Assembly: GCA_026545225.1 (NCBI GenBank)
Contig: CM048850.1
Span: 1,798,001-1,862,000 of the forward strand
Direction of reading: 5' to 3'
Length of the DNA: 64,000 nt
From: Cornus controversa
Taxonomy: Eukaryota > Streptophyta > Magnoliopsida > Cornales > Cornaceae
The notes under the pieces were generated by a model. That model saw only the letters and a program-made list of their open reading frames with translations, was not told where the DNA came from and did no database searches. A program made the position numbers and the translations under genes. Shown in pieces: positions 18,924 through 53,186 of the stretch. The stretch's first letter is position 1, and every line of letters starts with the position of its first letter.

Positions 18924-19046
18924 TTATCTATTTGATTGATTGGATTTTACAAAATTAATTTCAATTGGATTTTTAGTTTAGGAAATTTTTATATTTTATT
19001 TTTAATTTTGTTTTTGTTTTCTTTTTCAGGTGCTTTTTGCTAATAT

Positions 19047-20792
19047 ATGCAAGGTCATTGTTCTGTAGCTGATCCTTTGATACCTCTTGATCCTGAGCCT
19101 GAACGTACTCTTAGACAACAGAGGAACATCCCTGTTGATACCATTGTGCAAGAGGAAGAAATAATTAAAGACATGGCAGAAGAGAGGAATAACAACCTTG
19201 TTCCTAATGCTGATGGAGAAAGAGCTAGATTGCTGAGGGACTACTATGTTCCTGAGACATATACCTCGCCAGCAGGTTTTCAACTACCCAATGTCACAGC
19301 ACAGAATTATGAGATCAAGTCCAGCATTATTCAAATGCTCACATCTTATTTTGGGTTGACTCAAGAAGACCCTTACAAGCATCTGGATGACTTCATTGAA
19401 GTGTGCTCAACTACAAAAATTCACAACTTCTCTGAAGATGCTTTCAGAATGACACTTTTTCCATTCTCTCTGAAAGACAAAGCAAAGTATTGGTTCAATT
19501 CTCTACCGGCTGGTTCTGTCATGACTTGGACTCAGATGCAACATGAGTTTCTCAAGAAGTTTTTTCCGATAGGGAAGACCAATCAGTTCAGACGTGCTAT
19601 CACCGGTTTCTCCCAACATGAGGGGGAACAATTTTATGAGACATGGGAAAGATTCAAGGACCTTCTTAGGAAGTGTCCCCATCATCAAGTTCCTAAGTGG
19701 CAACTAGTGTAGAGTTTTCATGAAGGGCTCACATAAGCCAACAGACAGATGGTTGATGCGTCGTGTGGAGGTACTTTTATGTTGAAGAGTGAAGAAGAGG
19801 CATGGACCTAATTTGAAAATCTTAGTGACAACTCTCTACAACATGTGTCCTCTACTCGTTCTAGCAGACCTGCCACTACAAGGAAAACTGATGTGATTTT
19901 TGAGGTTGGTGCTTCAGAAGCTATGCCAACTGATATTGAGTTAATTGCACAGAAGGTGGTAGCAATTATGGCTGCCAATCAAACTCCTTCTGCTTCAAAT
20001 TCTTCATTGCTAGGCCCTTGTGAGTTTTGCTCTAGTCCTATGCATAATGTGAGTAATTGTCCTTCAATGGGGCAATTTTCTGATGGTCAACATGAGCAAG
20101 TTCAAGCGACTTTCACTAGACCAATGAATCCTCCATGAGGTAATACTTACAATCCCACATGGAGGAATCACCCTGGTTTTTCTTACAGTAATCAAGGGGC
20201 AGCAATGCAACCATCATATCAACCTAGGACTTTTGTGCCTCAACAACAATTTCAAACACAAAGTCCTATGGCCCAAAGAATTTCTGCTATTGAAGACAAG
20301 CTGACTCTTACCTTGTCTAAATTTGACAAGCTTGATTCTCTTATAGAGACAGTGCAAGCTACTGCAGCAACAGTACAATCTACAGTTCAGCTAGTGCACT
20401 CGCATTCTCAATCCATTGCCAAACTGAAATCTCAGTTTGGACAGCTTGCTAATTCATTATGTAGAAGAGAAGAAGGGAAGCTCCCTAGTCAACCAATTGC
20501 TAATCCAAGAGGGATGCAAGCTTCCACAAGTAACCCACACCATGAGCAAGTTCAAGCTATTACCACTTTGAGGAGTGGGAAAATAATTGATAATAAAGTG
20601 GGTGAGAAGAAAGAAGAAGAAAAAGTGACCACAAGTCCAAGTGCTGAAATTCCTTATGAGCCCAAGGCTCCTTTCCCACAACGTTTCCTTGAAGCATCTA
20701 AATTGGGGAAGCAAGGGGACAAGTTGCATGACATGATGGAGGTGTTTCGACAAGTGAAGATTAATTTGCCACTCCTTGATGCCATCAATTAA
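19047..20792 (+). pseudogene. gag region of D
   Basis: Gag forms the particle that packages element RNA. The N-terminal part shows the plant retrotransposon gag core (DDFIEVCSTTKI, then AKYWFNSLPAGSV, TWTQMQHEFLKKFFP and GEQFYETWERFKDLLRKCP). A CCHC zinc knuckle (C-x2-C-x4-H-x4-C) lies near 20019-20060. A Gln/Pro-rich stretch with a helical region follows (20205-20470), then a lysine- and glutamate-rich tail. The region is broken. Confidence 0.85.
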
Positions 20793-29863: not shown

Positions 29864-30713
29864 GCACTGCCCGGAAATTCCCAAACACCTATACAAGATC
29901 AAATTAAATCCAAATCTCAACCAAACCACCTTAGATCATTCATATTTCATATAAATCATCTACCATTGATATAAATTCATGCTCGCACATCAACCTATAC
30001 ATTTGAATCTCAAATCTTGCATAATCATAGAAATTTCCCTAGGTTCACAATACACCCAAAACTCAAGTGTATAAACCAACCTTGATTTCCAAATTCATTT
30101 CCAAAACACCAATCTCACACTCAAATCACTTTCATAATTGAATTCATACACCAAAATGAATCATTTCTTTCACGCACACAACCCATTCAAAATGAAAACA
30201 TCATCAAAATGAATAAAATGCCACCATGGGCGCTACATATATTAAACCGTTGTCTTTTCACACCCAACAAGTTTATAATCCAATACATACATCAAAAGTA
30301 CATATGTCCAAAGTCCAACCACAACTCAAAACATAATTCACATGCCACAAGCCGGCATGGATAGCCACAAAAATGCTCCAAAACTCAAAAGATAGCAAAG
30401 CCACCACTAGTGTTCCACTTGGACACTCACGTCCCATCCGTCATCGGCGCTTTATCTGTAAAATATTTAGAATAAAGGGGTGAGCACCACTGCGGCTCAG
30501 TAAAGGTTCCCCAACCCTTCTAAGTGCCGACCCGACACGACCTACATGGAATGCATATGAATACACTACATGCCACGTCCACAATCTCACAAACACATCA
30601 ACAATAGCAATTTAAGAGAATTGCACATATCACGAATCATGTATAACATGTTCAAACATAAAAGCATTAAAGTGAGTAAATGCTCTCTCTCTCGGTCCTC
30701 ATCCGATACCCTA

Positions 30714-31034
30714 CATGATTGGTCCGCTCCGAGGATCATGTAACCTTGGACAACTCCGATAACATCCAATGACCGGGACAACTCCGAAGGGTCATTCTAC
30801 CATAGCAATATATGGGATTGCCATAGAGTGAGGGGGCAACTCCGAGGCTCACGACTCATGGACATTCTCCGATAATCATCCTATGACCGGGACAACTCCG
30901 AAAGGTCATTAGTATTGGACATACTCCGATCCTAGGCATTAAGCCTTAGTATGGCGGGTCCACTCCGAGGGCCATACATAGTGGATAATTTTACCACATT
31001 TCACAACACGGTTGGACTACTCCGAAGCCCCGTG
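30714..31034 (-). other. Row of six stem-loops with a constant loop (F2, minus copy)
   Basis: Plus-strand stems in order: CATGAT/ATCATG (30714-30740), ATGACC/GGTCAT (30769-30795), GTGAG/CTCAC (30828-30852), ATGACC/GGTCAT (30883-30909), TATGGC/GCCATA (30950-30976), CACGG/CCGTG (31007-31034). The first five loops are exactly 15 nt and share GGNCNRCTCCGARG; the sixth is 18 nt. Stem sequence changes from unit to unit but complementarity is kept. Confidence 0.85.
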
Positions 31035-31831
31035 TACCTCTTTTGCGTCATTTTTCCCGCAACTTCCCACATATGCAATATGAATGCATAAACACGTGAT
31101 ATTTTACTTTCATGCTCAACTCATGCTCATTGATACTAAAAAGAAGTAATAAGCATATTTTTCATCACCACACACCACATATAGCACATATATGTATTAC
31201 ACATGCATATATCATCTCATATGCATACCACTTCAAAATTAGCATATTTTACTCATGCTACATTCAATGCATAATTTTAGCACATAGAACTAAACATGCA
31301 TTCAACAACCACATTCCCACGTATAATCACATATATGACACTTGGTACACATTTTTCCACATATACGCCAAATTGAGCACATAATACCTATGTATCAATT
31401 TCTTACACTCACATACTTCAAACCCACATGCTACCACCAACACAATATACACAATTGTGAAAAGATAGGACTCTAGAGAAGAAGAAAACATAACTTTCTA
31501 CACCTCTCACCATCCTAAAGCATGTGAAACACAACCTACACCTCTCTTCTTCACCCGAAACCCTAGAATCGATAATTAGAAGAGAAGAAGAACCCCTACC
31601 TCGAAAATGAAGGCCTTCCAAGCACTTCACCAATTTTCCAGCAGAGTCTACCTTGCCGAATCACCACTTTGTTCGGTTCAAAGGGAAGCCCTAGCCGTCC
31701 CCTACGTATCTCCCTCCTTCGGCGAGTCTTGAATCTAAGCCGAACGGGTCCGAAATGTAGAGAGAAGGGAGAGCTTTGAAGATGGAGAGCTTTAGAGAGA
31801 GAAAGAGGCGTGAGATATGGCTGAATATCTC

Positions 31832-32288
31832 TGTCACGCCCCGGTTTCCGACACCCGGTTAGGAGCGAGGGAAACGGGGGTGAACCCGTAATTTCACCTC
31901 AAGTTCCCACACCTTAATCTCATTTTAATCTATTCTATTGCGGAAGCATTCTATATGTACACCCTTCAGGTGACATAAGATCATCAATGGCCCTTGCAAT
32001 TGATTTTCACGAAAATCGGGCATGACCCATTCTAAATAATCAGCTCCTGGCATATAACACCTGCTTTACAATTCATATGGACACTTCTGGGCACGTGTCC
32101 CCCCCAGCATTTATATCTAGACAATAAAAATGGACACTTCTGGGCCCGTGTCCCCCCAATATTTCTACAACATGCATGATAGAATCAAAAATATACATGC
32201 CTCAGTCCTTGAATGTCCGTATTACATCTATACATCACATGAATGAAATACATCTGAAGAAACTGAATCACCATAATTACTCCATACA
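31832..32288 (-). repeat. Tandem chain LTR 1, 3' end part (before E3)
   Basis: TGTCACGCCCCGGTTTCC starts the minus-strand LTR. It matches 53187-53643 with a single difference seen. It stops at ATACA, the target copy of the nested element E3, and resumes at 46972. Confidence 0.92.
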
Positions 32289-33312
32289 TGTCACGCCCCG
32301 ATTCCCGAGGCCCGGAAACCGAGGTGTGAACCCCGTGAGATCACCCTCACGACATAACCTCCACCTGATCATACAATTCAATTCCCTATTATTTTTTACG
32401 AAAATCGGGCATGACCCATTCTAAATAATCAGCTCCTGGCATATTACACCTGCTTTACAATTCATATGGACACTTCTGGGCACGTGTCCCCCCAGCATTT
32501 ATATCTAACAATAAATATGGACACTTCTGGGCCCGTGTCCCCCCAATATTTCTACAACATGCATAAACAATTATAAATATGCATGCCTCAGTCCTTGAAT
32601 ATCCGTATTAAATACATACATCACATGAATAAATACAATTGATGGAACTGAATCAATATAAATCGCTTTATACATTTAATCCAAATGTAAAGCATCTATC
32701 TATCCACTATCCTGGATATACACTAGATTCTAAGGAATCTAGATACTACCTCTGCAACCGGTGCTGTTAGTCCCCTAACTAACTCCAAAACCAGCAATAC
32801 CTGCAAAACCTGGGAGGGGGTGAGCTCAAAGGCCCAACAAGGTATGTAGAACCATACTATCACCGCTGCAGCAAGTCGATTCTCACATATTCTCAAAAAT
32901 ATACATGCACTTAAATATATCACAATATTTAAGACCATGCCCCACCTAGCATGCATAAACCAATGATGTATATGGCTACTCTAGCACATATGAACATACA
33001 AAATCCACTATACATGATTTTAGAAATCATTTTCAACATGCTTGAAAGCAGTAAACATCAGGCATCAATATGTATATAGAACATATATGTCAACACATTT
33101 ACATAACCGATATAAATCAACTACCACATCTCCTACTCGTCAAGTAGCACATCACAAATGCAATAAAGATGCATTTAAACAGGAAAACATGCTTAACAGA
33201 TAAACACATAAGCATAAAGGTATTTTTCACCTTCCACGGTCATAATCCGATACAAAAGACAAGCATCTAAGCTTGCACATACTCTCACTCTCGGTCCTCA
33301 TCCGATACCCCA

Positions 33313-33648
33313 CATGATTGGCCCGCTCCGAGGATCATGTGACCTAGGACAACCCCGATAACCATCCAATGACCTGGACCACTCCGAAAGGTCATTCTAC
33401 TCTGGCAATGTATAGGATTTGCCATTATGTGAGGGGACAACTCCGAGGCTCACATTCATTGGACACACTCCAATGGCAATATATTGGCTTGCATAATCGT
33501 GAGGGGGCAACTCCGAAGCTCACAAATATTGGACATACTCCGATTCTAGGCATAAAGCCCTCGTATGGCGGGCCCACTCCGAGGGCCATACGTAGTGGAT
33601 GATTATACCACTTCTCGTGACACGGTTGGACCACTCCGAAGTCCCGTG
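33313..33648 (-). other. Row of six stem-loops with a constant loop (E3 3' LTR)
   Basis: Stems: CATGAT/ATCATG (33313-33339), ATGACC/GGTCAT (33369-33395), GTGAG/CTCAC (33429-33453), GTGAG/CTCAC (33499-33523), CGTATGGC/GCCATACG (33562-33592), CACGG/CCGTG (33621-33648). Loops of the first five are all 15 nt with GGNCNRCTCCGARG. Stem-less loop words (for example GGACATACTCCGAT) lie between. The other LTR has the same row at 43750-44085. Confidence 0.88.
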
Positions 33649-36052
33649 CACCTCTTTTTGCGTTAGTTTTCCCGCAACCTCCCCTATATGCAATATGGAT
33701 GCATACGTGACCAAGCATTCTATTTTATGCTATCCCAATGCACTAGCTAGTATATAAGTACATAACATGCATTTCTCTCTACACAAACCCACATATAACC
33801 ACGTATGTGTCATTTCCCTCCTATATATGCAATATAGATGCATATATATACAGCATAGTACATTCATGCTTCAACCCATGCTTATGAATACTAAAAAGAA
33901 GTACTTAGCATGCTTTTCACCACATTCTAACACATATAGCACATATATGTTCAAAACCTGCATAACACCTCACATATGCAAACAATTCCCACTTAGCATA
34001 TTTTTATCATGCTATAACCAATGCATACATTTTCTATAAATAGATAGCATGCATTTTATTCACGTAAGCCTACATGTAAACACGTACATGTCAAATCATG
34101 CATATAAATCACATATGCACTTACGCTAGCATAAATACAGTCATGCTCTCATTCAATGCATGTATTCATTACGAGTAGCTAACATGCATTCCAATCACAA
34201 TATATATACACACATATATATATATTACGTCACCCACACATGTATCAAGAACATATAAAACACTTAGCACATTTCATGCTTTTCAAATGCTCGTCAAAAG
34301 TTAAATTCAACTTAGCATGCATTTCTACCACTGCAACCATATATATATATATAATCACATACATATATATATACTTCCTGAACACCATGCATAAGAACCA
34401 CATATGCATACAAGACAACACAGAGCTAAACCGGTATTATTTAGCATGCTTTCCATAGACTCTAATCTATACATACATGCATATCACAATGCAATTAGGC
34501 GATTAATCTAACATGTTATCGCTTCCCAACCCGCACATACATATGTATATACACACGCATACGTATATCCTCTCACATCCCATGTATGTACCACATTCCC
34601 TATACACATATATATATATAAGCGTCTACATATATATGTATATACACATACCACATATGATTAATTTGAAACATATGTAAATTACTCAATATACATAAAA
34701 TATTTGTATGAGATAGAGGCAAGAATCAACTTGCCTTAAGTCCTGCTCTCAACCGGTCCGTGCCTGCAAATCGGCCTCTACCAAGTCCGGTCCAGTCCCG
34801 TGTTCAAGTCACACACGATAATCCTCTGAACCATTTCCTTCGGCGCCAGCCTAAGGAACCATCATCAATACTACCTCAATCCTTCCACGGTAGTCCCATC
34901 ATGGCTGCCACCGTGAGCAAAGTCCCGCCAAATCATAACCAGCTGTGAATCTCTCTAGTTCGGCAACCCAAAACAACCCACAACCCGAGTTGCCAACCGA
35001 ACCCCATGTGCAACCCACACACAACTCACTGCTAAGCCGAACCCGCTAGCAACCAAATCAAACCGCTACCATGGCCGAAACGGCCTTCACTCAAGGCCAC
35101 AAGTCCGAACACCATCAACCGATTCAAATCCAACCCATAATCCATCCGAACATCAGGACCCTCATCAAGCCCAATTTCTACCATGTACGCACCATCACCA
35201 TCATCAAGTTACCCACCTGACACTTGGTTCAACAATGCATAGGGATGCCCAAGTTTTAGAAGTGGAGATCATACAAAAAGAAGACCCAGTTATGGCACTG
35301 TCTAAGCACCACCGAGAACCAAACCCACTTTAATCAAAGCGGCTACCCAAAATCAAACCACCAAGGCCGAGCCTCCACTAGCCACTACTGTAACCTCACG
35401 GCTGCAACTCCCAAACCAGCCGAAGTCAAACACCAACCAAACCGTGATCAACGGAGCACCAAACAGCCCCTAACCTCGAGCCACCCTCATGCTGCCAAAC
35501 GGCCCCTCCGGTGCCACCATGTGCACCCTCAACCCTCAACAATACAGCCACCACCAAACCCGGAAGAGAGTACCCGAACGGTCCCCATAACTAGCCGATC
35601 GAACCCACCAGTCGAAGACCATCACCGGTCTCGGCACCTTCAACCCAAGGAACCACCATCTTTGGTCAATCAACCCTCACCCACGGCCGGCCCAAGGAAG
35701 CCCAGCCGTGAACCCAATCAAGCACCACCAAGCTCGATCCGAAGCCCCCACTGAACCAAACAGGACCCAGTCGTGCTCAGCCCCAAATTCGAACCACCCA
35801 CAGCCACTTCCGGCACCAACTGCACCGGAAATAACCAAGGAGAACCCACCTGCAACCGTCGCCGGCCACCCACCACGGAAGACCCATCCGAACCAACCGA
35901 GCTCAACCCACAACTCCAGCCGCGAAACCCTCGGTCTCGGCCAGCAACCCGCAACTGGCCACCGCCGTCCCCGTCGGCCGCCACTCCAACCGCTGCCGGC
36001 GCACCGCCTTCGCCGTCGCCCAGGCGGAGCCCCGCCGTGAGCACCCCGAGCC

Positions 36053-36150
36053 ACCTCCTCCTTCTTCTCCCGATTCTCTCTCGGTTCTCTCTTTCTTCTC
36101 TTCTTTTTCTTTTCTTTTCTTTTTCTTTTCTTTTCTTTCTTCTTTTCTTT
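36053..36150 (-). repeat. CT-rich tract (GA on element sense strand)
   Basis: Equivalent to 2854-3032 in E1. Copy in the other E3 LTR at 46490-46587. Confidence 0.85.
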
Positions 36151-36532
36151 TGTCCACAACTTTTCTCTACATTACCCACAGCCACATGTATATACATAAT
36201 ACATACAATATATATATATGTATATTTTTATCACATGGGCATCTAATTATACATACACATATGTATATACATCACCACATACTCTTGCCCCTCCACAAGC
36301 ACAAAACTACGAATGTGCACCACTATTTCTCCCTAATTGCATAAGGCCCCCCATATATTTATAATTAAATATAAATATGGATACTATGTATATATATATA
36401 TATATACATATACTCACCTTCCACTTGTCCAGAAATATATCCACGCCCTTTCCGGAATTTATTTAATCCGAAAAAAATTTTAATCCGGTCCAAAATCGCC
36501 CGGAATCGGTCAAAATAATTCCGGTCCTTACA

Positions 36533-36544
36533 ACCTCCCCTCCT
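36533..36544 (-). promoter_or_regulatory. Polypurine tract of E3
   Basis: Minus-strand AGGAGGGGAGGT lies directly before the 3' LTR start TGTAAGG. Confidence 0.85.
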
Positions 36545-39092
36545 TCAAGGAATTTCGTCCTCGAAATTAGCATAGTCATGGTCTTTCCAAAATCAATCCA
36601 TACCGGACGTCATTCTCGCCAATGATCGTCACTTTCTCTCTCCACATACCCTAGGCGCTACACTTGCAACACCTAACTCATGACTCCCAAGTCTTGCACA
36701 ACAGTGCATCTCGACTGCCGTAAGGCAATTTAACCGTTTCCGTGACATGGCTGAGTGACTCCTAAGCTCATGTACTGTTCACTCACGAAATCCTCTGAAG
36801 CACTCGCTTCCTAGAGTCCACAGTCTCTACCTCAAGACCTACCCAGTCCATCTCCATCTCTAGTCTAAGGCAACACCTTCGACTAATCATTCCCATCACT
36901 CACAGTGATACTTCCCCTATAATCCGGGATCATCAATACTCAAAGTCATTCTTTTATTATTAGACATGACTTTCAATCTCTGGCATATCATTCCCGGGCT
37001 TAGTCCAATATCCTGGGCATCGCCACAACACAATCCACGTCAATCCAGTGCACATCACAAGCGCACTCACCAGCAAGGCACATGACGGTGTACTCGCCGA
37101 TAAAAACAACACAAACAGTGTGCTTGCCGCAGCAAGCCACACAATCCTGCCCAGTCTCATAGACTACAACCCACTGGAATCCAATGCCAAGTCCAGGATC
37201 TCACATCCCGCTGATCTCACAATCTCATTATTCAAGAGGAGAAATATTTACCCTTTTTCATCCTTCACACCAAGGAGCCAGTTGACATTTAGAGAGAATT
37301 CCTTTCATATCAGCACTTCACTTTAGACAACCCTTACCAATGAAAGTTTGAGGTCACCTACAGTAGCCAAACAGCAGCCATACAGTGGCCGCAGCCCACT
37401 GCGTCTACACGTCCACTGCGTCCACCTCTCCCCTTCACGGTAAGAAATTATCCTCACTTCAGATACCATATGTTAGGATCCTCATCTACTATCAACCCAT
37501 CCTCCTCTTAACATCATATCCACACTATGATCCAACTGCATCTATCATGCGCATATCACAGTACACCACTGAGGTCAAGGCACATAAGGAGTGCACTTGT
37601 CAAAACAAATCATCCAGTCCCGTCCATTTTTTTTTGTGGACTACGTTCCTTTGGCATTTAGTGCCAAGATTAGGGTTTTACATGCCCTTAACTTCACAAA
37701 TCTCATTTCCTAAGGAATGAATCCAATTTACTTAGTCGTCCATTAATCCTAACGGACGTTTTCGGCTTCCCGGGTATTTATCCATTCCTTTCCAGCATCT
37801 CCTTTGAGACTCCAAGATCCTGACTGTTTCGTCTAGGACCCCACAATTCCAGACTTACTTTCAAAGTCTATCACTACATGTTTATTTCAACATCACCGTC
37901 CACTCGGTTTCAAACCTCTACCCAGGTTTACCAATCCTCAAAACCAGAACTTCTAGGTGACTACATGTCACTACTAGCCATGCAACGCAAAATGAAACAC
38001 TAAAGTGCAATGCTCAATTACATGAATCACATATACCACATAGCATATAACACACAACATGCTAATCAAATAAACACGTACCATGCATGATATGACGTAT
38101 GATGCATAAATCAAGACCCTAGCCCTCGGGCTAATACTAGGAAAATACCCCTGACCGTACACGGTCCTGGTACCTCCTCTACCTGAGCAAGCGTGTAAAA
38201 CACGGCCCAGTCCCCCTAGTATACACACATACTAGAACACAACATCTAGAGTGGTTCAAACCAACCTACTCTCATCCTCTATACCCATTGGTAAACACCT
38301 ACCAATCCATCCACGTCTATAGTCTAAGGTAGCAACCTTGACTATCAATTCCAATCACTTTCAATGACATATACCTACTATTGGGAATTCTTTATCCATC
38401 GTCATCCAGACGAAACAACTCAACATCCACAAGAGCCGACGTATTGTAAGAGAAGCACTAATCCAAGAAAAATGTCTGGCCAGGCCACTTTTCCCAGTTA
38501 GCCCAACTCCGGCAACATGCCTTCCTTGTATCCCATCTCAATCCCAATTGCCAACCTTGGCAATACACTTACCAACAACACATCATAAGCCCCTAAGTGT
38601 CTGTAAGGACTTAAACACTCGCAAACTTCCTTGCGGTATCTCTTCATTGCTCACTAATGAGACTCAATCACCAAATCAAAGGTCTAAACTCAACCAATTC
38701 TGGGAGTTATCACCAATCGAAACCTGTTTCACACACCAACACTTTGATCTTTCATTAGGATTGCTCACACCGAGCAAGTCATTCCACTATCATCCATAGG
38801 TAATCAAACCTATTATCTAGACAACTATTAACCATTGCCTATCTCCAAATCAACACGTGATTTGACCATCTGTCCTTAGGTATTCGAACCTACGACTTTG
38901 ATACCCTAGGTTTTCAAACCTAATGCCTTAACAGCAATCCAGAGTTCCTCAAATCCACAACTCTATCCTGTCGCCCCTAGGTACTCCAACCTAGTGCTCT
39001 CATAGCATTCTGGTATTAGGTACATAATCCAACCTTCTCAACCATACACGTGGCATGTCCATTCCCGTCGTCCCTAGGTATTCCAACCTAGA

Positions 39093-39104
39093 GCTCTGAT
39101 ACCA
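39093..39104 (-). promoter_or_regulatory. Second initiator-Met primer-site copy in E3
   Basis: Minus-strand TGGTATCAGAGC lies 2 bp after the Cassandra-like LTR end (GGGGCGTTACA). This duplicates the E3 primer site about 530 bp away. Confidence 0.75.
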
Positions 39105-39106
39105 TT

Positions 39107-39496
39107 TGTAACGCCCCACCCTATCCCGACACAATATTGTCCGCTTTTGGTTCCCCCAGACCAGAGACTTCCCAGGGGGTCACCCATCCTGGAACTACTC
39201 CCAGCTAAGCACGCTTAACTGTGGAGTTCTGGTGGATTCACAACCATCACGGCTTTAAAACGCGTTGTTTGGGTATCAGAGTGCACACCGCAGCGTAGCA
39301 GACCACACCCCCACAATATTGTCCTCTTTGGGCGCCTACCAGGACTCGAAACCACGATCTCCTGGCGCCTACCCTCAAGGCTTTGTTCCTGGCTACCAAC
39401 TTGGCACCAGAACGCGTTGTGTCATAGAAGGGTGATAAACATACATATAATACTTTCCCATTCCACACCCAGGCGATGTGGGATTGAGCACCCTGT
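39107..39496 (-). mobile_element. Cassandra-like TRIM LTR with 5S rRNA-derived domain
   Basis: On the minus strand it runs from about TACAGGGTGCTCAATCCCAC through a 5S-like domain (39236-39166) and GGACAATATTGTG to GGGGCGTTACA, followed 2 bp later by an initiator-Met primer site. A 5S-like segment inside a short LTR with this primer is the definition of Cassandra. The start is uncertain. A second GGACAATATTGTG near 39313-39325 suggests internal duplication. No coding capacity, as expected. Confidence 0.7.
39166..39236 (-). other. 5S rRNA-like domain inside the Cassandra-like LTR
   Basis: Minus strand CCACCAGAACTCCACAGTTA, then AGCGTGCTTAGC, AGTAGTTCCAGGATGGGTG and ACCCCCTGGGAAGTC, closely tracks the 3' two thirds of plant 5S rRNA (about 85% by eye). 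It is not a working 5S gene: the 5' third is not present. Confidence 0.85.
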
Positions 39497-39651: not shown

Positions 39652-40841
39652 TGTAGAGACCGTGACCAATTTTGGCCGGTTTTGCATTTTTCGCATAATA
39701 ATTGCCATAAATGCATTTTGAGTAATGTTTAACATGTTTTGAGTGTGGGGAACATGTTTGGGGAGTGTTTTAAAGGTTTTGGGAACTTTTCGAAAGATTT
39801 GGAGAAGTTTGACTTTTTGGTCAAACCGGGGCCCGAGATGTGACTTAAGTGGGCCCGGGAGTCCGGAAAATTTTTGAAAATAATTATTTTTGGGAATGGC
39901 TTAGATGAAATGTTTAGAGAGTAGAGGAAGTGATTTCAAGACCGTAGGAGTTTTCGAAATCAAAAACGGAGTCCGGGAAGGTACGTTAAGTGGCCGAGGG
40001 GCATTTTAGTCATTGTCCATGCCTTAGATATTTTAAATATCTGGCTGAGGTTGATCCCAGCCATTTCACACGGATCCTTCTCTCTCTAACATTTCCCTCT
40101 TCTCCTCTCTACCTTCTCTCTACATTTCGGAGCCGTTCGGGTGCGATTCGGGTTTCGCCGAAGAAGGGAGATACGTAGGGGACGGCTAGGGCTTCCCTTT
40201 GAACCGATCAAAGTTGCGATTCGGAAAGGTAGACGTCGCTGGAATTTTGGTGAAGTGCTTGGAAGGCCTTCATTTTCGAGGTAGGGGTTCTTCTTCTCTT
40301 CTAATTGTCGATTCTAGGGTTTCGGGTGAAGAAGAGAGGTGTAGGTTGTGTTTCACATGCTTAGGATGGTGGGAGGTGTGGAAAGTTGTATTTTCTCCTT
40401 CTCTAGACTCCTATCTTTTCACAATTGTGTCCATTGTGTTGGTTGTAGCATGTGGGTTTGAAGTGGATGAGTGTGAGAAATTGATACATAGGCATTATGT
40501 GCTCAATTTGGTGTATATGTGAAAAATGTGTGCCAAGTGTCATATATGTGATTATATGTGAAAATGTAGTTGTTGAATGCATATTAGTTCTATGTACTAA
40601 AATTATGCATTGATTGTAGCATGAGTAAAATATGCTAATTTTGAAGTTGTATGCATATGAGATGATATATGCGTGTGTTATACATATATGTGCTATATGT
40701 GGTGTGCGGTGGTGAGAAACATGCTTTTTACTTCTTTTTAGTATTAATGAGCATGAGTTGAGCATGAAAATAAAATATCATGTGTTTATGCATTTATATT
40801 GCATATGTGGGGACTTGCGGGATAATGATGCAAATAAGGTG

Positions 40842-41164
40842 CACGGGGCTTCGGAGTAGTCCAACCGTGTGGTGGAAGGTGGTGAAATTATCCACTATGT
40901 ATGGCCCTCGGAGTAGACCCGCCATGCTAAAGGCATAATGCCTAGGATCGGAGTATGCCCAATACTAATGACCCCTCGGAGTTGTCCCAGTCATTGGATG
41001 GTTATCGGAGAATGTCCAAGATTTGTGAGCCTCGGAGTTGTCCCCTCACTTCATGGCAATCCTATACATTGCTATGGTAGAATGACCTTTCGGAGTTGCC
41101 CCGGTCATTGGATGGTTAGAGGAGGTGTCTAAGGTTACATGATCCTCGGAGCGGGCCAATCATG
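40842..41164 (+). other. Row of six stem-loops with a constant loop (F2 solo LTR)
   Basis: Sense-strand order: CACGG/CCGTG, ATGGC/GCCAT, AATGAC/GTCATT, GTGAG/CTCAC, ATGACC/GGTCAT, CATGAT/ATCATG. Loops read CCTCGGAGTNGNCCC; four are 15 nt. Order and stem sequences match the minus F2 copy (30714-31034). Confidence 0.85.
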
Positions 41165-42226
41165 TTGGGTATCGGATGAGGACCGAGGGAGAGAGCATTT
41201 ACTTTTCTTAATGCTTTTATGTTGAACATGTTATACATGATTTATGAAATATGCAATCCTCTTTAATTGCATTTTGTTAAATTATTTATGAGATTGTGGA
41301 CGTGGCATGTAGTGTATTCATATGCATTCCATGTAGGTCAGTGTCGAGTCGGCACTTAGAAGGGTTGGGGAACCTTTACTGAGCCGCAGTGGTGCTCACC
41401 CCTTTATTCTAAACTCTTTTACAGATAAAGCGCTGATGACGGATGGGACTTGAGGGTCCAAGAAGAGTTCTAGCTATATTTTGCTATATTTTGGACATAT
41501 GTACTTTTGGCTATCTGTGCCGGCTTGTGGCACGGTAATGATTTAGTTGTAGTCATAGTAGAATTTGTGGCATTTTGAACCTTATGCATGAATTCTTGTA
41601 ATGACTATAAACTTGGAAGAACCATATGAATGATATATATACATATCTTTTGAGAAAAGTGTGTGTTGGAGATGTATGGTACCATAGGACCATTTTCCTC
41701 TTTAGTTATAATTTCTCGTATGGTTAATCATGAGCAAATGGAGTATGGAAAGTATGTATGCATGAGTTATGAAGTGAAGGTGGTAAGAAAAATAGATGGA
41801 ATTACATTTCAAGTATGAAATGCATGTTATGTGGATTTACTTGATGGCCATTGAGGCATTAGAGTAGCCATTGGGGGGACACATGCCCAAAAGTGTCCAT
41901 TTTGAGTTCAAGGAGTGAATGGAATTTATGTATATAGTAAGAGAATTATGTTAGCTTCATTTTGATAGGTTATGGACCTTGTTTGGATTTAAATTGAGAA
42001 ATATATGCATGGGTTAGTGCATGAGTGGACAATCTGACCCGCGACCACTAAATTGAGTATAACTTGAGCTGTGGTTGGTATTTTTGAGTGATTCAAATTG
42101 GGTTAGAAACTAGACACGTTGAGGATGATCCATGTCAAATTTCAAGTCAAACGAACTTACGGATTGTGAGATATTAGCATTTGAAGTCAGGTTGAGGAAT
42201 GCTGTCAAAAACTCAGGCACAGGTAT

Positions 42227-42382
42227 TTTCAGCCTGCTGAAAGTCCACTTTCAGCCAGCTGAAAGTGCACTTTCAGCCTGCTGAAAGTTCACTTTCAGGC
42301 GACTGAAAGTGCCAGTTTTGAGAATGCAAGCCCTCTGGAAGTTTCAGGCGACTCAAACTAAATTTTCAGGCGACTGAAAGTC
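42227..42382 (+). repeat. Palindrome array (CTTTCAG-NNNN-CTGAAAG) in F2 solo LTR
   Basis: Five words keep arms of 6-9 bp (CACTTTCAG/CTGAAAGTG) while the 4-nt centre varies: CCTG, CCAG, CCTG, GCGA, GCGA. The minus F2 copy carries TCGATTAATCGA words at the equivalent site instead. Confidence 0.9.
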
Positions 42383-42731
42383 CTGTAACCCTTAAAAATG
42401 TGTTTTTTTTGTGATTTTTCATGATCTAAGAGTAGAAATTGAATGTCGTGGATGCATAAATCGATGTGTGGCCCATTGGAATGGATAGTGATGAGTATAC
42501 GCATGGATAATTACTTGCGTATGATTAGCTTCCGCGGTAATCGAGAAATAGGAGGAGGTTCATTGGGATTTAAATGAACAAGTTCACCTCCAATTTTCTG
42601 GGAGTCGGGAATTGGGGTGTGACAGGATGGTATCATAGCATGGTACTTTATAGAGGGTAAAAAGGGTCCATCGGGACTAATGGACGGGTTAACCTCCGGT
42701 TTCCCGGAGTCGGGGGAACCGGGGCGTTACA

Positions 42732-45700
42732 CCCCGATTCCCGAGGCCCGGAAACCGAGGTGTGAACCCCGTGAGATCACCCTCACGACATAACCTCCAC
42801 CTGATCATACAATTCAATTCCCTATTATTTTTTTACGAAAATCGGGCATGACCCATTCTAAATAATCAGCTCCTGGCATATTACACCTGCTTTACAATTC
42901 ATATGGACACTTCTGGGCACGTGTCCCCCCAGCATTTATATCTAACAATAAATATGGACATTTCTGGGCCCGTGTCCCCCCAATATTTCTACAACATGCA
43001 TAAACAATTATAAATATGCATGCCTCAGTCCTTGAATATCCGTATTAAATACATACATCACATGAATAAATACAATTGAAGGAACTGAATCAATATAAAT
43101 CGCTTTATACATTTAATCCAAATGTAAAGCATCTATCTATCCACTATCCTGGATATACACTAGATTCTAAGGAATCTAGATACTACCTCTGCAACCGGTG
43201 CTGTTAGTCCCCTAACTAACTCCAAAACCAGCAATACCTGCAAAACCTGGGAGGGGGTGAGCTCAAAGGCCCAACAAGGTATGTAGAACCATACTATCAC
43301 CGCTGCAGCAGGTCGATTCTCACATATTCTCAAAAATATACATGCACTTAAATATATCACAATATTTAAGACCATGCCCCACCTAGCATGCATAAACCAA
43401 TGATGTATATGGCTACTCTAGCACATATGAACATACAAAATCCACTATACATGATTTTAGAAATCATTTTCAACATGCTTGAAAGCAGTAAACATCAGGC
43501 ATCAATATGTATATAGAACATATATGTCAACACATTTACATAACCGATGTAAATCAACTACCACATCTCCTACTCGTCAAGTAGCACATCACAAATGCAA
43601 TAAAGATGCATTTAAACAGGAAAACATGCTTAACAGGTAAACACATAAGCATAAAGGTATTTTTCACCTTCCACGGTCATAATCCGATACAAAAGACAAG
43701 CATCTAAGCTTGCACATACTCTCACTCTCGGTCCTCATCCGATACCCCACATGATTGGCCCGCTCCGAGGATCATGTGACCTAGGACAACCCCGATAACC
43801 ATCCTATGACCTGGACCACTCCGAAAGGTCATTCTACTCTGGCAATGTATAGGATTTGCCATTATGTGAGGGGACAACTCCGAGGCTCACATTCATTGGA
43901 CACACTCCAATGGCAATATATTGGCTTGCATAATCGTGAGGGGGCAACTCCGAAGCTCACAAATATTGGACATACTTCGATTCTAGGCATAAAGCCCTCG
44001 TATGGCGGGCCCACTCCGAGGGCCATACGTAGTGGATGATTATACCACTTCTCGTGACACGGTTGGACCACTCCGAAGTCCCGTGCACCTCTTTTTGCGT
44101 TAGTTTTCCCGCAACCTCCCCTATATGCAATATGGATGCATACGTGACCAAGCATTCTATTTTATGCTATCCCAATGCACTAGCTAGTATATAAGTACAT
44201 AACATGCATTTCTCTCTACACAAACCCACATATAACCACGTATGTGTCATTTCCCTCCTATATATGCAATATAGATGCATATATATACAGCATAGTACAT
44301 TCATGCTTCAACCCATGCTTATGAATACTAAAAAGAAGTACTTAGCATGCTTTTCACCACATTCTAACACATATAGCACATATATGTTCAAAACCTGCAT
44401 AACACCTCACATATGCAAACAATTCCCACTTAGCATATTTTTATCATGCTATAACCAATGCATACATTTTCTATAAATAGATAGCATGCATTTTATTCAC
44501 GTAAGCCTACATGTAAACACGTACATGTCAAATCATGCATATAAATCACATATGCACTTACGCTAGCATAAATACAGTCATGCTCTCATTCAATGCATGT
44601 ATTCATTACGAGTAGCTAACATGCATTCCAATCACAATATATATACACACATATATATATATTACGTCACCCACACATGTATCAAGAACATATAAAACAC
44701 TTAGCACATTTCATGCTTTTCAAATGCTCGTCAAAAGTTAAATTCAACTTAGCATGCATTTCTACCACTGCAACCATATATATATATATAATCACATACA
44801 TATATATATACTTCCTGAACACCATGCATAAGAACCACATATGCATACAAGACAACACAGAGCTAAACCGGTATTATTTAGCATGCTTTCCATAGACTCT
44901 AATCTATACATACATGCATATCACAATGCAATTAGGCGATTAATCTAACATGTTATCGCTTCCCAACCCGCACATACATATGTATATACACACGCATACG
45001 TATATCCTCTCACATCCCATGTATGTACCACATTCCCTATACACATATATATATATAAGCGTCTACATATATATGTATATACACATACCACATATGATTA
45101 ATTTGAAACATATGTAAATTACTCAATATACATAAAATATTTGTATGAGATAGAGGCAAGAATCAACTTGCCTTAAGTCCTGCTCTCAACCGGTCCGTGC
45201 CTGCAAATCGGCCTCTACCAAGTCCGGTCCAGTCCCGTGTTCAAGTCACACACGATAATCCTCTGAACCATTTCCTTCGGCGCCAGCCTAAGGAACCATC
45301 ATCAATACTACCTCAATCCTTCCACGGTAGTCCCATCATGGCTGCCACCGTGAGCAAAGTCCCGCCAAATCATAACCAGCTGTGAATCTCTCTAGTTCGG
45401 CAACCCAAAACAACCCACAACCCGAGTTGCCAACCGAACCCCATGTGCAACCCACACACAACTCACTGCTAAGCCGAACCCGCTAGCAACCAAATCAAAC
45501 CGCTACCATGGCCGAAACGGCCTTCACTCAAGGCCACAAGTCCGAACACCATCAACCGATTCAAATCCAACCCATAATCCATCCGAACATCAGGACCCTC
45601 ATCAAGCCCAATTTCTACCATGTACGCACCATCACCATCATCAAGTTACCCACCTGACACTTGGTTCAACAATGCATAGGGATGCCCAAGTTTTAGAAGT

Positions 45701-46971
45701 GGAGATCATACAAAAAGAAGACCCAGTTATGGCACTGTCTAAGCACCACCGAGAACCAAACCCACTTTAATCAAAGCGGCTACCCAAAATCAAACCACCA
45801 AGGCCGAGCCTCCACTAGCCACTACTGTAACCTCACGGCTGCAACTCCCAAACCAGCCGAAGTCAAACACCAACCAAACCGTGATCAACGGAGCACCAAA
45901 CAGCCCCTAACCTCGAGCCACCCTCATGCTGCCAAACGGCCCCTCCGGTGCCACCATGTGCACCCTCAACCCTCAACAATACAGCCACCACCAAACCCGG
46001 AAGAGAGTACCCGAACGGTCCCCATAACTAGCCGATCGAACCCACCAGTCGAAGACCATCACCGGTCTCGGCACCTTCAACCCAAGGAACCACCATCTTT
46101 GGTCAATCAACCCTCACCCACGGCCGGCCCAAGGAAGCCCAGCCGTGAACCCAATCAAGCACCACCAAGCTCGATCCGAAGCCCCCACTGAACCAAACAG
46201 GACCCAGTCGTGCTCAGCCCCAAATTCGAACCACCCACAGCCACTTCCGGCACCAACTGCACCGGAAATAACCAAGGAGAACCCACCTGCAACCGTCGCC
46301 GGCCACCCACCACGGAAGACCCGTCCGAACCAACCGAGCTCAACCCACAACTCCAGCAGCGAAACCCTCGGTCTTGGCCAGCAACCCGCAACTGGCCACC
46401 GCCGTCCCCGTCGGCCGCCACTCCAGCTGCTGCCGGCGCACCGCCTTCGCCGTCGCCCAGGCGGAGCCCCACCGTGAGCACCCCGAGCCACCTCCTCCTT
46501 CTTCTCCCGATTCTCTCTCGGTTCTCTCTTTCTTCTCTTCTTTTTCTTTTCTTTTCTTTTTCTTTTCTTTTCTTTCTTCTTTTCTTTTGTCCACAACTTT
46601 TCTCTACATTACCCACAGCCACATGTATATACATAATACATACAATATATATATATGTATATTTTTATCACATGGGCATCTAATTATACATACACATATG
46701 TATATACATCACCACATACTCTTGCCCCTCCACAAGCACAAAACTACGAATGTGCACCACTATTTCTCCCTAATTGCATAAGGCCCCCCATATATTTATA
46801 ATTAAATATAAATATGGATACTATGTATATATATATATATATATACATATACTCACCTTCCACTTGTCCAGAAATATATCCACGCCCTTTCCGGAATTTA
46901 TTTAATCCGAAAAAAATTTTAATCCGGTCCAAAATCGCCCGGAATCGGTCAAAATAATTCCGGTCCTTACA
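42732..46971 (-). repeat. 5' LTR of E3, main part
   Basis: About 99.7% identical to 32289-36532 by hand comparison. It includes the target copy CCCCG of the F2 solo LTR at its left edge, the stem-loop row at 43750-44085, and the CT tract at 46490-46587. It ends at the ATACA target copy. Confidence 0.92.
43750..44085 (-). other. Row of six stem-loops (E3 5' LTR)
   Basis: Copy of 33313-33648 in the other LTR. One substitution falls in a stem-less loop word (CTTCGA), and none was seen in the stems. Confidence 0.85.
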
Positions 46972-47582
46972 ATACATCTAATCCAAATGTCCTAGTTATA
47001 CATTAAATTCTAAAGAATTTAACTACTACCTCTGCCACCGGTACTATGAGTCCTCTAACTGACTCCGAAATCAGCAATACCTGCAAAACCTGGGAGGGGG
47101 TGAGCTCAAAGGCCCAACAAGGTATATAGAACCATACTATCATCGCAGCAGCAGGTCGATCCTCACATATTCTCAAAAATATACATGCACTTAAATATAT
47201 CACGATATTTAAAGTCATGCCCCTCCTAGTATACATGAACCAACAATGCACATGGCAGTTTTTGCATTTATGAACATTTAAATCAACTATACATGACTTA
47301 TGAAAATCATTTACAACATGTTCAAGGCAGTACACATCCCACGTCATTATGTATAGAAAACATATATGAACAGAAACATTTACATGAACAATGTAAATCA
47401 AATACCACGTCACCTACTCAACAAGATCCATTGAATCATGCATAAATGCACATGCTCATGCATTTTTACCCAAACATCCACATTTCTGAAATCATGCATG
47501 ATGCTTCACATACAGTGCAAATACATACGTATATAACTCACACCAAACTAATTCATAGGGGGCTTTCTCATCACTCCAATAG

Positions 47583-47696
47583 TAAGGGTCTCTTCGGCAC
47601 CCAAACTCTGCTTGTGCTTTATCGGGTTACTAACCCGAAGGGAGCACCTCCTCTTGGCCAAGTTTTGGGTCTTTCACCCTAGGGGCCATCCCCTTA
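47583..47696 (-). other. Foldable block in chain LTR 1
   Basis: Nested arms TAAGGG/CCCTTA, CCCAAACT/AGTTTTGGG, GTGCT/AGCAC, with apical hairpin CGGGTTACTAACCCG at 47623-47637. Counterpart of 5366-5478. Repeated in LTR 2 and LTR 3. Confidence 0.6.
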
Positions 47697-48417
47697 TCTT
47701 AATTTTCACACTCCTGCCCCAAAATCATATATATAGTGCATATAAGCACACCCATGCACTTATCCACACCATGAATGCATTTTTCTCAAATCAATGCATT
47801 TTCCTTTCACCTCAAGATTGTCACAATGTCATCACACTCATATCATGGAAACCACCATGCTTATGCATTTTTCAAGAAGACAGTCATTTCTTTCATGCAC
47901 AAATCTGTAAACACCACATCTTCACGTTTTCACCAACAAACACACTTTTCATCAGAATCATTCATAATCACATTTGCACATACACAACATATATATAGAT
48001 GTCACATCTTGCATATAATCACATGTATGCGTATATTAGCATAAATATAATCATGCTTTCATTCCAATCATGCATTTACTACGAGCAACCAACATGCATT
48101 CTTACAACTATACATAATCACGCAAATATATAAATATATATACATCATGTCACCCATATAGGTAGTAAAAACATACATAACATTTCACATATTTCATGCT
48201 TTTCCAATATCCTTCTATGCCATAATCAATTTAGCATGCATCTCTACTACTGCACCACATATATAATCACGGATATACTTACATATATTCAACTCATGTA
48301 TAAGAATCATATATACATGCAAGGCAACATCTAGCTAAATATACATATATAATTTAGCATGCTTTACATGTCTCAATCTCTAAACATGCATATAACAATG
48401 CCCTAACCCTGCAAGCC

Positions 48418-48427
<10 letters not shown>

Positions 48428-48462
<35 letters not shown>
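48428..48462. repeat. (TA)n microsatellite, long allele
   Basis: 14 bp longer than the same run in LTR 2 (about 55096-55116) and LTR 3 (about 61749-61769). It is the main length difference between chain units. Confidence 0.9.
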
Positions 48463-48464
<2 letters not shown>

Positions 48465-50445
48465 ACCCACATATATATGCGTCTTCACATCCCACGTGTC
48501 TATATATATAAACACCTTTATATATATATATGCACATATATATATATGCAAACGCCACATATGACTAAATTAAGAACATATGTAAAATTAATCAATATAG
48601 TCAAATATACATAGAGATAGAGGCAAGAATCAACTTGCCTTAGGTCCCGCTTTTACTAAGCCTGCGTCTGCAAAGCGGTCCGTCTCCAAGTCCCGGTCCA
48701 GTCCCGTGTCGAAGCCCACCCGAACAAATCCACTGGACCACTCAAACAGGCCATCCTCATCCAGACCAAGGGAACCCACAAACCAGCCACACCGAGCTTT
48801 ACAAACCCAAGTAATTCCCAACACTACCTACACCAAGTGTCAACCCATATCCTACCAAAATCATACCAATACTAAATGAGCATATCAAGTCCATGGAACC
48901 ACTAAGCCCAACCAAACAATTACCACACTACCTCAACTGTGCCAAAATTCACAAGCTACCAACACCATGGTAGCCACCGTATCTCCACAACCGAAGCTAG
49001 CAATTAAAGACCCAATTCTTCACAATCCAATTCAAGACACAATTCCTAACATCCTGTTATCCAAGACCCATCAATCCAATACCAAGGCCGACACCACCAT
49101 GTCTTCCGAAAACCACCCAGTCAAAGCCCCAAGCTTCGGCACCATTATAGACCCCAAAGCTGAACCCACCATCCGAAACCCAGCCGAAAAATCCCAGCCG
49201 AGCCCCCACAGTTGGACACCACCACCACCATTCGGTCCACCACCACAACCCCATCCAAATCCTCACCACCAAACCCAGCCGAATCACCATCAGTAACTCA
49301 ACAACCCACACGGCCGTTGCCGTCCACGGCCGCCACTGACCACCCAAAAGAAAGCACCCGGACTGTTCCCAAAATTTGGACCCGAATCAACTCACCGTAA
49401 CAGGTCTACCAGCCGAAGCCACCGTCGGCACCAGCCACGGCCAACCCAGCCCCATTCGAAGCCTCTGCCGTCGCCGGAGTGCCACCTCAACAGCCGTAAT
49501 CAGCCGAAATCAACACGACCCAGAACCCTCGGCCAAACAAACCCAACCACTACCACCAAATCCATGAACCAGTCACCGAACCCACCATCTACACCACGGT
49601 CGAACCCAGCCGAGCCCAACCCCAGCCGAATAGCGCCTCGCCGGCCGTCGCGATCGCCGTCGCCGTCGCCCAGGTGAAACCCCCCATTCGCGAATAGCCC
49701 AGTCGCGAACCGAGCCACCACGCGACATTGAACAACTCCACCGTGGGCAACGCCTGTTACTGTCGACGCCCCTGCCGGAAACGGCTTCCCGCCGCTGCTG
49801 ATCGGCCGCCGGAACTGATCCCCTCTCGGTTTCTCTCTCCCCGACTCCCCTCTCTCTCTCTCCTTTTCCTTTTTCTTTTCTTTTCTTTCTTTTTCTTCTC
49901 TTTTTCTTTTCTTTTCTTTTCTTTCTCTTTTCCTCTTTTTCTCCTTCAGCCGATTCTTCTTATCTTTATTCTCTCTTTAAATGTGCACCACAACTTTACT
50001 TACACCATCCTCCTCCACATAAAATCATACTATATATCTAATATACATATATAACACCACACATTCTCACCAACCCCTCTTTTGTCCATCTATATATGTA
50101 TATGTATATATTATATATATATACACTATAATACACATATACTTGTACACATACACCTTTCTCCATCTACCATACTTATACATATGTATACCCATATATA
50201 TATAATTAAATAAAAATACACCATGACTATATATATATATATCCTCATATATATATAATCACATCCTCCATCTACATATGTAATCCCACATATATGATCA
50301 TCCCTTTCTATATATATATCTATATAATTCCATTTATATATATATATATATATATATCCACATATTTTTCAAAATTAATTTATTCGAAAAATTAAATCCG
50401 GTCAAAATCCACCCGGAACCGGTCAACAAAATTCCGGTCCTTACA

Positions 50446-53186
50446 ACCTCCCCTCCTTTAAGGAATTTCGTCCTCGAAATTAGCATAGTCATGGTCTTTC
50501 CAAAACCAATCCTTACCAGACGTCATTCTCACCAATGATCGTCACTTTCTCTCTCCACATACCCTAGGCGTTACACTTGCAACACCGAACTTATAACACT
50601 CAAGTCTGGCATAATCAGTGCGTCTCAACTGCCGTGAGGCAATATAACCACTTCCGTGACATGGTTGAGTGACTCCTAAGTCCATGTACGGTTCACTCAC
50701 GAAATTCTCCGAAGCACTTGCTTCCTAGAGTCCACAGTCTCTACCTCAAGACCTATCTAGTTCATCTCTACCTCTAGTCTAAGGCAACACCTTTGACTAA
50801 TCAAATCAATCACTCACAGTGATACTTCCCTATACTCCGGGATCATCAATATTCAAAGTCATTCATTTAATATCCAACATGACTTTCAATTCCTGGCATA
50901 CCATTCCCGGGCTCAGTCCAATATCCTGGGCATCATCACAGCACAAACCATATCAATCCAGTGCACATCACAAGCGCACTCACCAGCAAGGCACATGACA
51001 GTGCACCTGCCGATACAAACCACATAAGCAGTGTACTTGCCACATCAAGCCACATAACTCTGCCCAGTCTCATAGACCACAACCCACTGGAATCCAATGC
51101 CAAGTTCAGGATCTTACATCCCACTGGTTTCACAATCTCCTTATTCAAGAGGAGAAACATCTACCCTTTTTCATCCTTCATACCAAGGAATTAGTTGACA
51201 ATTAGAGAGAATTCCTTTCATATTAGCACTTCACTTTAGACAATCCTTACCAATGAAAGTTTGAGGTCACCTACAGTAACCAAACAACAAACCATACAGT
51301 GGCCGCAGCCCACTGCATCTACACATCCACTGCGTCCACCTCTCCCCTTCACAGTAAGAAACTATCCTCACTTCAGATACCATATGTCAGGATTCTCATC
51401 CATTATCAACTTATCCTTCTCTTAACATCATATCCACACTTTGATCCAACTGCATCAATCATGTGCATATCACAGTACACCACTAAGGTCAAGGCACATA
51501 AGGAGTGCACTTGTCAAAACAAATCCTCCAGTCCTGTCCATTTTCGTGGACTACATTCCATTGGCATTTAGTGCCAAGATTAGGGTTTTACATGCCCTTA
51601 ACTTCACAATTTCATTCCTTGACGAATGAATCTCACTTACTCGTCCATTGATCCTAACGGACGTTTCCGACTTGCTGGGTATTTATCCATTCCTTTCCAG
51701 CATCTCACTTGATACCCCAAGATCCTGACTGCTTCGTCTAGGACCCCACAAATCCTTCCATGCATCACTATAATCCTGGTACCCCAATACCACCAATATC
51801 CTTAGTCAATTAACTGACCTCTAGTCCTCCCTAACGGTGCAAGAGTGCAACGTAAATCTGGACTACCAAATTCTCAGTTTGGAAAGTCCCAAGGCAAATC
51901 ATGCCCCTCTTCATCAACACTAGACTCCTACCCTCAAGGTCTATCACAAGATGTCTATTTCAACATCACAGTCCGTTCAACTCCAAACCTCTACCTAGGT
52001 TTGCCAATTTTCAAGACTGAAATTTCTAGGTGACTACATGTCACTACTAGCCATGCAACGCAAAATGAAGCACTAAAGGGTAATGCACAGTCACATGAAT
52101 CACGTATAGCACATAGCATATAACATACAACATGTAAATCATATAAACACGTACCATGCATGATATGAAATATGATGCATCAAATCAAATCAAAATCCTA
52201 GCCCTCGGGCTAACACTAGGAAAATATCCCTGACCATACACGGTCTCGGTACTTCCTTTGCCTGAGCAAGTGTGAAACATGGCCCAGTCCCCCTACTACA
52301 CACATACTAGAACACAAAATCTAGAGCGGTTCAAACCAACCTACTCTCATCCTCTGTACTCATTGGTAAGCACCTACCAATCCATGCACATCTATAGTCG
52401 ATGGTAGTATCCTTGACTATCTACACCAATCACTTTCAGTGACATATCCCTACTATTGGGAATTCTTTACCTGTCGTCATCCGGAGGAAACAACTCAACG
52501 CCTACAAGAGCCAGCGTATTGTAAGAGAAGCACTAATCCAAGAAAAATGTCTAGCTAGGCCACTTTTCCCAGTTAGCCCAACCCCGACAATATGCCTTCC
52601 TTGTATTCCATCTCAATCCTGATTGCCAACCTCGGCAATATACTTACTAATAACACATCGTAAATCCCTAAGTATCTGTAAGGACTTAAAACACTCGGGA
52701 CATTCTTTGAGTTATCTCTTCGTTGTTCACTAACAGGACTCAATCACTAAGTCAAAATCTAAGCTCAACCAATTCTGGGAGTTATTACCAATCGAAATCA
52801 GTTTCACACACCAACACTTTGATCTTTCATTTGGATTGCTCAAACCGACCAAATCATTCCACTATCATCCATAGGTAATCAAACCCATCATCTATACAAC
52901 TATCAACCATTGCCTATCTCCAAATCAACACGTGATTTGACCATCTGCCCTTAGGTATTCGAACCTATGACCTTGATACCCTAGGTTTTCAAACCTAATG
53001 CTTTAACAGTAATCCAGAGTCCCTCAATTCCTCAACCCTTACCCGTCGCCCCTAGGTATTCTAACCTAGTGCTCTGATACCATGCTGTTGGTATCAGACA
53101 CTTGATCTAATCCTCATAATCCCAAACGTGATCCAACCATCACCCGTCGTCCTCAGGTTTTCTAACCTGATGCTCTGATACCATGT
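50446..53186 (-). other. Chain internal region 1 (2741 bp, non-coding)
   Basis: On the minus strand it runs from primer site TGGTATCAGAGC (53183-53172) to TTCGAGGACGAAATTCC and polypurine tract AGGAGGGGAGGT (50457-50446). No gag or pol domain in any frame. Homologous to the E3 internal region. Confidence 0.88.
53172..53183 (-). promoter_or_regulatory. Primer-binding site, chain unit 1
   Basis: TGGTATCAGAGC on the minus strand, 3 bp inside the LTR end at 53187; complementary to initiator tRNA-Met. Confidence 0.9.

Follow-up and report, generated by a model that had tools for sequence, protein, structure and literature searches.

A row of constant-loop hairpins with variable but paired stems in the long terminal repeats of a plant Ty3/gypsy retrotransposon group

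An array of small hairpins is repeated many times in this plant genome, within the LTRs of one retrotransposon group. Each hairpin carries the same loop, and the stems vary in sequence yet keep their pairing. The array occurs in high copy number, lies on the gag-pol strand, is shared by two element types, here called A and C, and is conserved between them above its own spacers. We read it, at a probability of about 0.4, as a cis-acting LTR array, typically of six hairpins, of a plant Ty3/gypsy group whose integrase is chromovirus-like; it may act as a multivalent RNA platform for Gag or a host factor. Support for the fold is good, and the function is what we infer from it.

The array was studied in a window, the whole stretch of 64,000 nucleotides analyzed here, which is plant DNA with many nested LTR elements. 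Four copies of the row lie in it, in these host elements:

32289..36532, minus strand: 3' LTR of element A, with TG..CA ends; contains the row
36533..39107, minus strand: internal region of element A; the primer-site complement GCTCTGATACCA is at 39093 and the polypurine tract adjoins 36532
42726..46971, minus strand: 5' LTR of element A, joined at U5 to a short end of another LTR
43748..44085, minus strand: the row again, within that 5' LTR
30712..31035, minus strand: row in the truncated LTR C1, which belongs to another family, has minus as its sense strand, and has its U5 end near 29263
40842..41165, plus strand: row in C2, a sense-plus LTR spanning 39652-42624 (~2.97 kb), its start set by likeness to the element L040 described below

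The two LTRs of element A (LTR length 4,244 bp) are 99.6% identical, and a 5-bp duplication, ATACA, read from the sequence, flanks the element at 32284-32288 and 46972-46976. It inserted within an LTR of a relative, element B, parts of which lie at 31832-32288 and from 46972 onward. The sense strand of A is minus, as follows from the placement of GCTCTGATACCA and the polypurine tract at the ends of the internal region. That region holds one open reading frame of at least 120 aa wholly inside it, without a Pfam match at E 0.01, and a single 103-bp match to the gag-pol frame of L040. With long LTRs and a non-coding internal region, element A is of the LARD type. C1 and C2 belong to one other family, distinct from A, with C2 oppositely oriented. 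Element B repeats every 6,653-6,667 bp (99.9%) across 46972-64000 in the order LTR-internal-LTR-internal, a near-perfect repetition that unequal recombination or assembly could explain.

The row in the 3' LTR of A comprises the following units:

33311..33341, minus strand: hairpin H1, stem CACATGAT/ATCATGTG, loop of 15 nt
33347..33360, minus strand: half copy of the loop without a stem, between H1 and H2
33368..33396, minus strand: hairpin H2, stem AATGACC(T)/(A)GGTCATT
33427..33455, minus strand: hairpin H3, stem ATGTGAG/CTCACAT, loop of 15 nt
33499..33523, minus strand: hairpin H4, stem GTGAG/CTCAC
33562..33592, minus strand: hairpin H5, stem CGTATGGC/GCCATACG, loop of 15 nt
33621..33648, minus strand: hairpin H6, stem CACGG/CCGTG, loop of 18 nt

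An earlier note, made from the letters of this window, had described six stem-loops here. They are real, with units at 33311-33648 and the constant loop CYTCGGAGYNGNCC on the coding strand, and perfect inverted-repeat stems of 5-8 bp were confirmed in all six units of element A. Other details needed amendment. The loop had been given as a plus-strand sequence, and the coding strand here is the minus strand. A length of exactly 15 nt, claimed for five of the six loops, holds for units 1, 3, 4, and 5; unit 2 has 15 or 13 nt depending on how its stem closes, and unit 6 has 18 nt. The description of the stems as unrelated between units was too strong: units 3 and 4 of A both have GTGAG, and units 2 and 4 of the C rows both have ATGACC. 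Older families point to a shared ATGAT-like ancestor. Between units, the loop was also found as half-copies that have no stem.

At one mismatch or fewer, the loop pattern has 24 matches in the window against 0.28 expected, all of them in the four rows (33311-33648, 43748-44085, 30712-31035, and 40842-41165). With the second LTR of A omitted as near-identical, three distinct rows remain, and in these each unit's own arms pair over at least 5 bp in 18 of 18 cases. Swapped arms of different stem type reach 5 bp in 0 of 256 combinations, and random anchors do so in 3.4%. Fifteen of the 18 units could be aligned without gaps, H6 being omitted for its longer loop. The six inner pairs of these units are paired in 96.7% of cells versus 52.7% after shuffling, between-unit covariation is 1.146 versus 0.293 (0/500 shuffles reach it), and pairing drops to 21-43% in wrong registers. 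The 15 units come from just four stem types, so there is less independent evidence than the number of cells suggests.

Other structured sequences were seen in the window. Palindromes CTTTCAG..CTGAAAG cluster near the U5 end of C2 (42225-42390), and TCGATTAATCGA-like palindromes lie at a comparable place in C1 (29650-29860) and again at 815-1180. A lone loop-like hairpin (three mismatches to the loop, stem of 5-6 bp) occurs at 36753, 50667, and 57320, in the internal regions of A and B, at a level that a covariance model places at chance (E 5.8 for the B copies). The sole Rfam match above gathering score in the whole window is to the plant snoRNA snoR71, at 19585-19690 on the minus strand, overlapping a gag-like open reading frame of another element (19044-19712); no Rfam family matched the row. 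A further hairpin block is common to the LTRs of A, B, and C2, the remainder of which has mostly diverged from C2:

About 200 and about 250 bp from the U5 end of the A LTR; 41877-41898 in C2; also in the B LTR: GGACAC..GTGTCC block

Across the assembly (771.7 Mb, 61 contigs), we counted 3,031 adjacent loop pairs (1,515 + 1,516), compared with 1 for a reversed-pattern control. Among 43 rows examined, six units with a stem of at least 5 bp were present in 22, seven in 1, and fewer in 20. Counting half-copies, these rows gave 313 loop copies, of which 206 had such a stem; at random anchors in the same loci, the rate was 5.6%. Spacings between stem-bearing neighbors were mostly 55-59 or 65-70 nt (145/164), loop copies including half-copies often stood ~28 nt apart, and the orientation of the loop was constant within the rows read. 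Scans of viral and general genome contig collections returned 0, 0, 1, and 10 stretches. We read these 11 as chance, since none has more than one match and the 10 named records are prokaryotes.

The rows also record how units change. Slot 4 has the stem GTGAG in A, ATGACC in C1 and C2, and TATGGC in the row L026, where the hairpin is a copy of the H5 type, indicating unit swapping within the row. Rows of an old family, D, lack slot 4, judged by spacing, and in many D copies the half-copy slot between H2 and H1 has a stem, AGTGT/ACACT. Units thus duplicate and replace each other, and we read the stems as derived from a single ATGAT-like hairpin. Duplicating units and the frequent ~28-nt period are what a plain minisatellite with meaningless palindromes, or chance, would also give. 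We consider this highly improbable, as the controls already disfavor it: the failure of swapped arms to pair (0/256), the stems at 206 of 313 loop copies versus 5.6% of random anchors, and the covariation between families presented below.

Next, we considered which elements carry the row. Among 40 scored matches of the A row were seven same-strand pairs 6,360-6,981 bp apart, a spacing that fits 4.2-kb LTRs with a short internal region, and two C-like pairs spaced 7,775 and 7,867 bp; each pair presumably represents the two LTRs of a single element. L040, which lies between a C-like pair, has a single open frame (988-5607, 1539 aa) with the domain order Retrotrans_gag, zf-CCHC, RVP_2, RVT_1, RT_RNaseH, Integrase_H2C2, rve, and SH3_Tf2-1, the rve match of 24.5 bits being under its cut-off of 32.6. 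The carrier of the row is thus a Ty3/gypsy element (Metaviridae), with gag followed by protease, RT, RNase H, and integrase in one polyprotein. In L041, the same domains are spread across two frames. Weak Chromo matches were found at the C-terminal end of the integrase in L040 (E 0.0034; 17.7 bits, cut-off 25.1) and L041 (E 0.0057). The LTR ends and polypurine tract are of a kind that we take to be Tekay-clade-like. In both L040 and L041, the row is on the gag-pol sense strand.

Comparison by blastn, of LTRs against C2 and of internal regions against L040, identified the parts common to A and C as the primer-site region (76%), the 103-bp gag-pol piece (83%), the polypurine tract (89%), the row (79%), its flanking block (76%), and the hairpin block (29-34 nt). 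The two types, C autonomous and A non-autonomous, otherwise share little beyond replication signals, and the row has been retained in LTRs that lost most other similarity. Element B has the same parts in common with C, minus the row and flanking block and plus two scraps of 22-26 nt. This related non-autonomous element lacks the row, though it has the primer site, polypurine tract, and gag scrap.

When the rows of A and C are compared, stems differ least: identity is 0.95-0.97 for stems (defined on A, with the H4 block omitted), 0.90-0.91 for loops, 0.74-0.76 for spacers, and 74-82% for flanks. In the old family D, which makes up 30 of the 40 places scored and is 83-100% identical to the query, the values are 0.87 for stem, 0.85 for spacer, and 0.79 for loop, and the gap to the lower loop value narrows once CG/TG/CA sites are removed. 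Pairing across the 30 D copies is at the shuffled level, which suggests that copies decay freely once inserted. The earlier note had held that stems mutating without compensation in genome-wide copies would speak against the fold. Old copies do mutate in this way, and we take this as neutral decay after insertion; the constraint thus seems to act on active elements.

To compare families, arms were placed independently by likeness to row A in 21 hand-picked rows, with 13-20 usable per slot (L081 lacks H1). Double Watson-Crick changes were more frequent than in shuffles that ignore relatedness, which reached the observed count in 0/1000 for H2, 0/1000 for H3, 8/1000 for H5, and 19/1000 for H6; the H1 stem showed no double changes in this count. 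The changes fall mainly at five pair positions, namely H2 pairs 2 and 7, H3 pair 1 (G-C in 8/17 rows, T-A in 6/17), H5 pair 2, and H6 pair 3 (C-G in 4/14, T-A in 8/14). This count replaces an earlier one on the same 21 rows in a fixed register (H1 1/500, H2 0/500, H5 1/500, H3 61/500, H6 131/500), which we discarded because it scored a one-base-displaced H1 stem as a double change and took the wrong unit as H2 in L076 and L078. In A/C-like units, nine double transitions were observed, with 0.35 expected if the changes were independent.

A tree-aware null, in which substitutions were moved among stem columns, gave a mean of 0.463 and a maximum of 0.629 paired cells, compared with 0.739 observed (0/400). 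Since displaced rows inflate substitutions, the null was repeated on A/C-like units alone (151 units, omitting L042 and L071) with the same outcome, 0.775 against a mean of 0.454 and a maximum of 0.662 (0/400). Double changes on single branches exceed the null modestly, at 5 versus 1.8 (15/400 reach this) and 5 versus 2.3 (31/400), and among divergent rows alone at 2 versus 1.3 (134/400). For the middle pair of H6 genome-wide, we counted C-G 742, T.G 24, C.A 46, and T-A 5; 24 × 46/742 gives 1.5 T-A expected, and the five observed are only a weak excess. An R-scape-like covariation check, as the earlier note had proposed, found no single pair at E<0.05, yet stem pairs were six of the seven top-ranked among 378 column pairs, and four of seven without family D. 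The note's central claim, that a fold rather than a sequence is kept, stands on the compensated stems between units and between families and on pairing above the tree-aware null. From these comparisons, we conclude that pairing is probably constrained in active lineages; the formal support is good, not decisive.

These data also bear on whether the palindromes could be products of mutation, with template switching during reverse transcription perfecting imperfect palindromes and unit duplication spreading the array. Such an origin would account for units that were duplicated and swapped (GTGAG, ATGACC, or TATGGC in slot 4) and for pairing within D that is no better than shuffled. It does not predict a loop of one orientation in the rows read, stems as the most conserved class between A and C, integrated D copies without correction, or a row kept in LTRs that have otherwise mostly diverged, and we judge it improbable.

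We then asked which molecule folds. Local folding with shuffles gave z -0.6 to -2.7 for the row, with flanks equally extreme, and the whole-row fold energy (z -1.35 and -1.16) did not single the row out; with DNA parameters, the row reached z -3.0. Half-changed pairs showed no wobble preference for the coding strand, with G.U 61 versus C.A 64 in family D, 31 versus 30 in A/C-like units, 40 versus 68 in a further count with a confounded register, and 24 versus 46 at the one H6 pair genome-wide. Excluding loop-closing pairs tilts the 61/64 and 31/30 counts toward G.U, a post-hoc choice that we did not count. The wobble data do not show coding-strand RNA to be the folding molecule. We looked on the sense strand for CTCCGA, as a kissing partner for the loop. 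It is missing from the LTR and the internal region of both A and B and from the C2 LTR; L040 has it at three places, all within the gag-pol frame. TATA-like sites lie downstream of the row by ~440 bp in C1 and C2 and by 640-810 bp in A, which would place the row in U3.

An action of the fold in DNA fits several of these results. U3 palindromes might extrude as small cruciforms or fold in single-stranded cDNA, forming, near the promoter, an enhancer-like or chromatin array whose constant center is a protein site. The missing coding-strand preference is what folding of both strands would give, and the DNA-parameter z of -3.0 and the TATA-like sites some hundred bp downstream agree with it. Repeated core motifs in U3 are also typical of LTR enhancers. 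Set against this, a double-stranded binding site needs no matching arms of free sequence, stems of 5-8 bp with 15-nt loops are short for cruciforms, and the wobble counts tell us little about active copies, as many of the half-changed pairs in them probably belong to dead ones. We regard a DNA-level action as rather unlikely.

The RNA platform is our best guess given the constant loop, its repetition, the zinc-knuckle Gag, and sharing by autonomous and non-autonomous elements. Matching arms of free sequence point to a strand folding on itself. In the mechanism we propose, every unit would display CYTCGGAGYNGNCC on a stem that is free to change in sequence provided that it still pairs. Genomic RNA would carry the row near its 3' end if the row is in U3, and the loops could jointly form a multivalent docking site for a single protein. 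The likeliest candidates are the Gag of the element itself, which has a CCHC zinc knuckle, and a host factor for RNA export. A shared site would let C-type proteins take A-type RNA in trans. RNA packaging, dimerization, and binding of a Gag-like protein, suggested in the earlier note, are candidate roles. Confidence is limited, and room is left for a DNA-level role, because B lacks the row, folding energy is ordinary, and the coding strand shows no wobble preference. A more specific version, in which the hairpins are a fold-coded recognition tag that directs chromovirus-like and non-autonomous RNAs to one shared Gag or export machinery while the stems drift under a pairing constraint, seems to us doubtful though conceivable. 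Hairpins in such copy number might instead be a decoy for, or source of, small RNAs, their transcripts being processed into host silencing RNAs or escaping them. The usual substrates of Dicer need stems far longer than these 5-8 bp, and the constant loop would have no role, making this explanation very unlikely.

The row may bear on how plant LTR retrotransposons select their own RNA and on the borrowing of proteins by non-autonomous ones. Structured cis elements that recruit host export factors are known from retroviruses, as in the CTE. Element A resembles LARD-type elements in its 4.2-kb LTRs and an internal region without a Pfam-matching frame. LARD RNA structure has been described in the internal domain, not the LTR; unlike that description, the row is in the LTR, and A has a C-type primer site and polypurine tract. 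In satellite tobacco necrosis virus 1, several short AxxA stem-loops have been proposed to be read by capsid protein (PMC6475782, in the part consulted). The likeness, on that same part of the paper, is in short stem-loops with a common loop motif and variable surrounding structure; STNV-1 is a positive-strand RNA virus with short AxxA loops across its genome, whereas the row has a long constant loop and is compact and inside an LTR. The IAP RTE and MusD MTE, as described in part of PMC12786077, are folded sequences through which LTR elements attract host export factors in cis. They are single complex folds of mammalian elements, whereas the row consists of many small hairpins, and we liken them by description. 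LTR stem-loops are known, for example in long R regions and around the polypurine tract in Sire elements, and for plant Metaviridae LTRs, length variation prevented a model, according to the abstract (PMC3601003). The conserved LTR structure models, in the parts of that paper examined, contain no row of constant-loop hairpins. Among the matches listed from full-text literature, in which subscription journals are mostly outside coverage, no such LTR row appeared by title or abstract start, and the loop strings led to no retrotransposon paper by title. As a short repeated array with a conserved fold and many copies, the row is a concrete target for binding and mutation tests.
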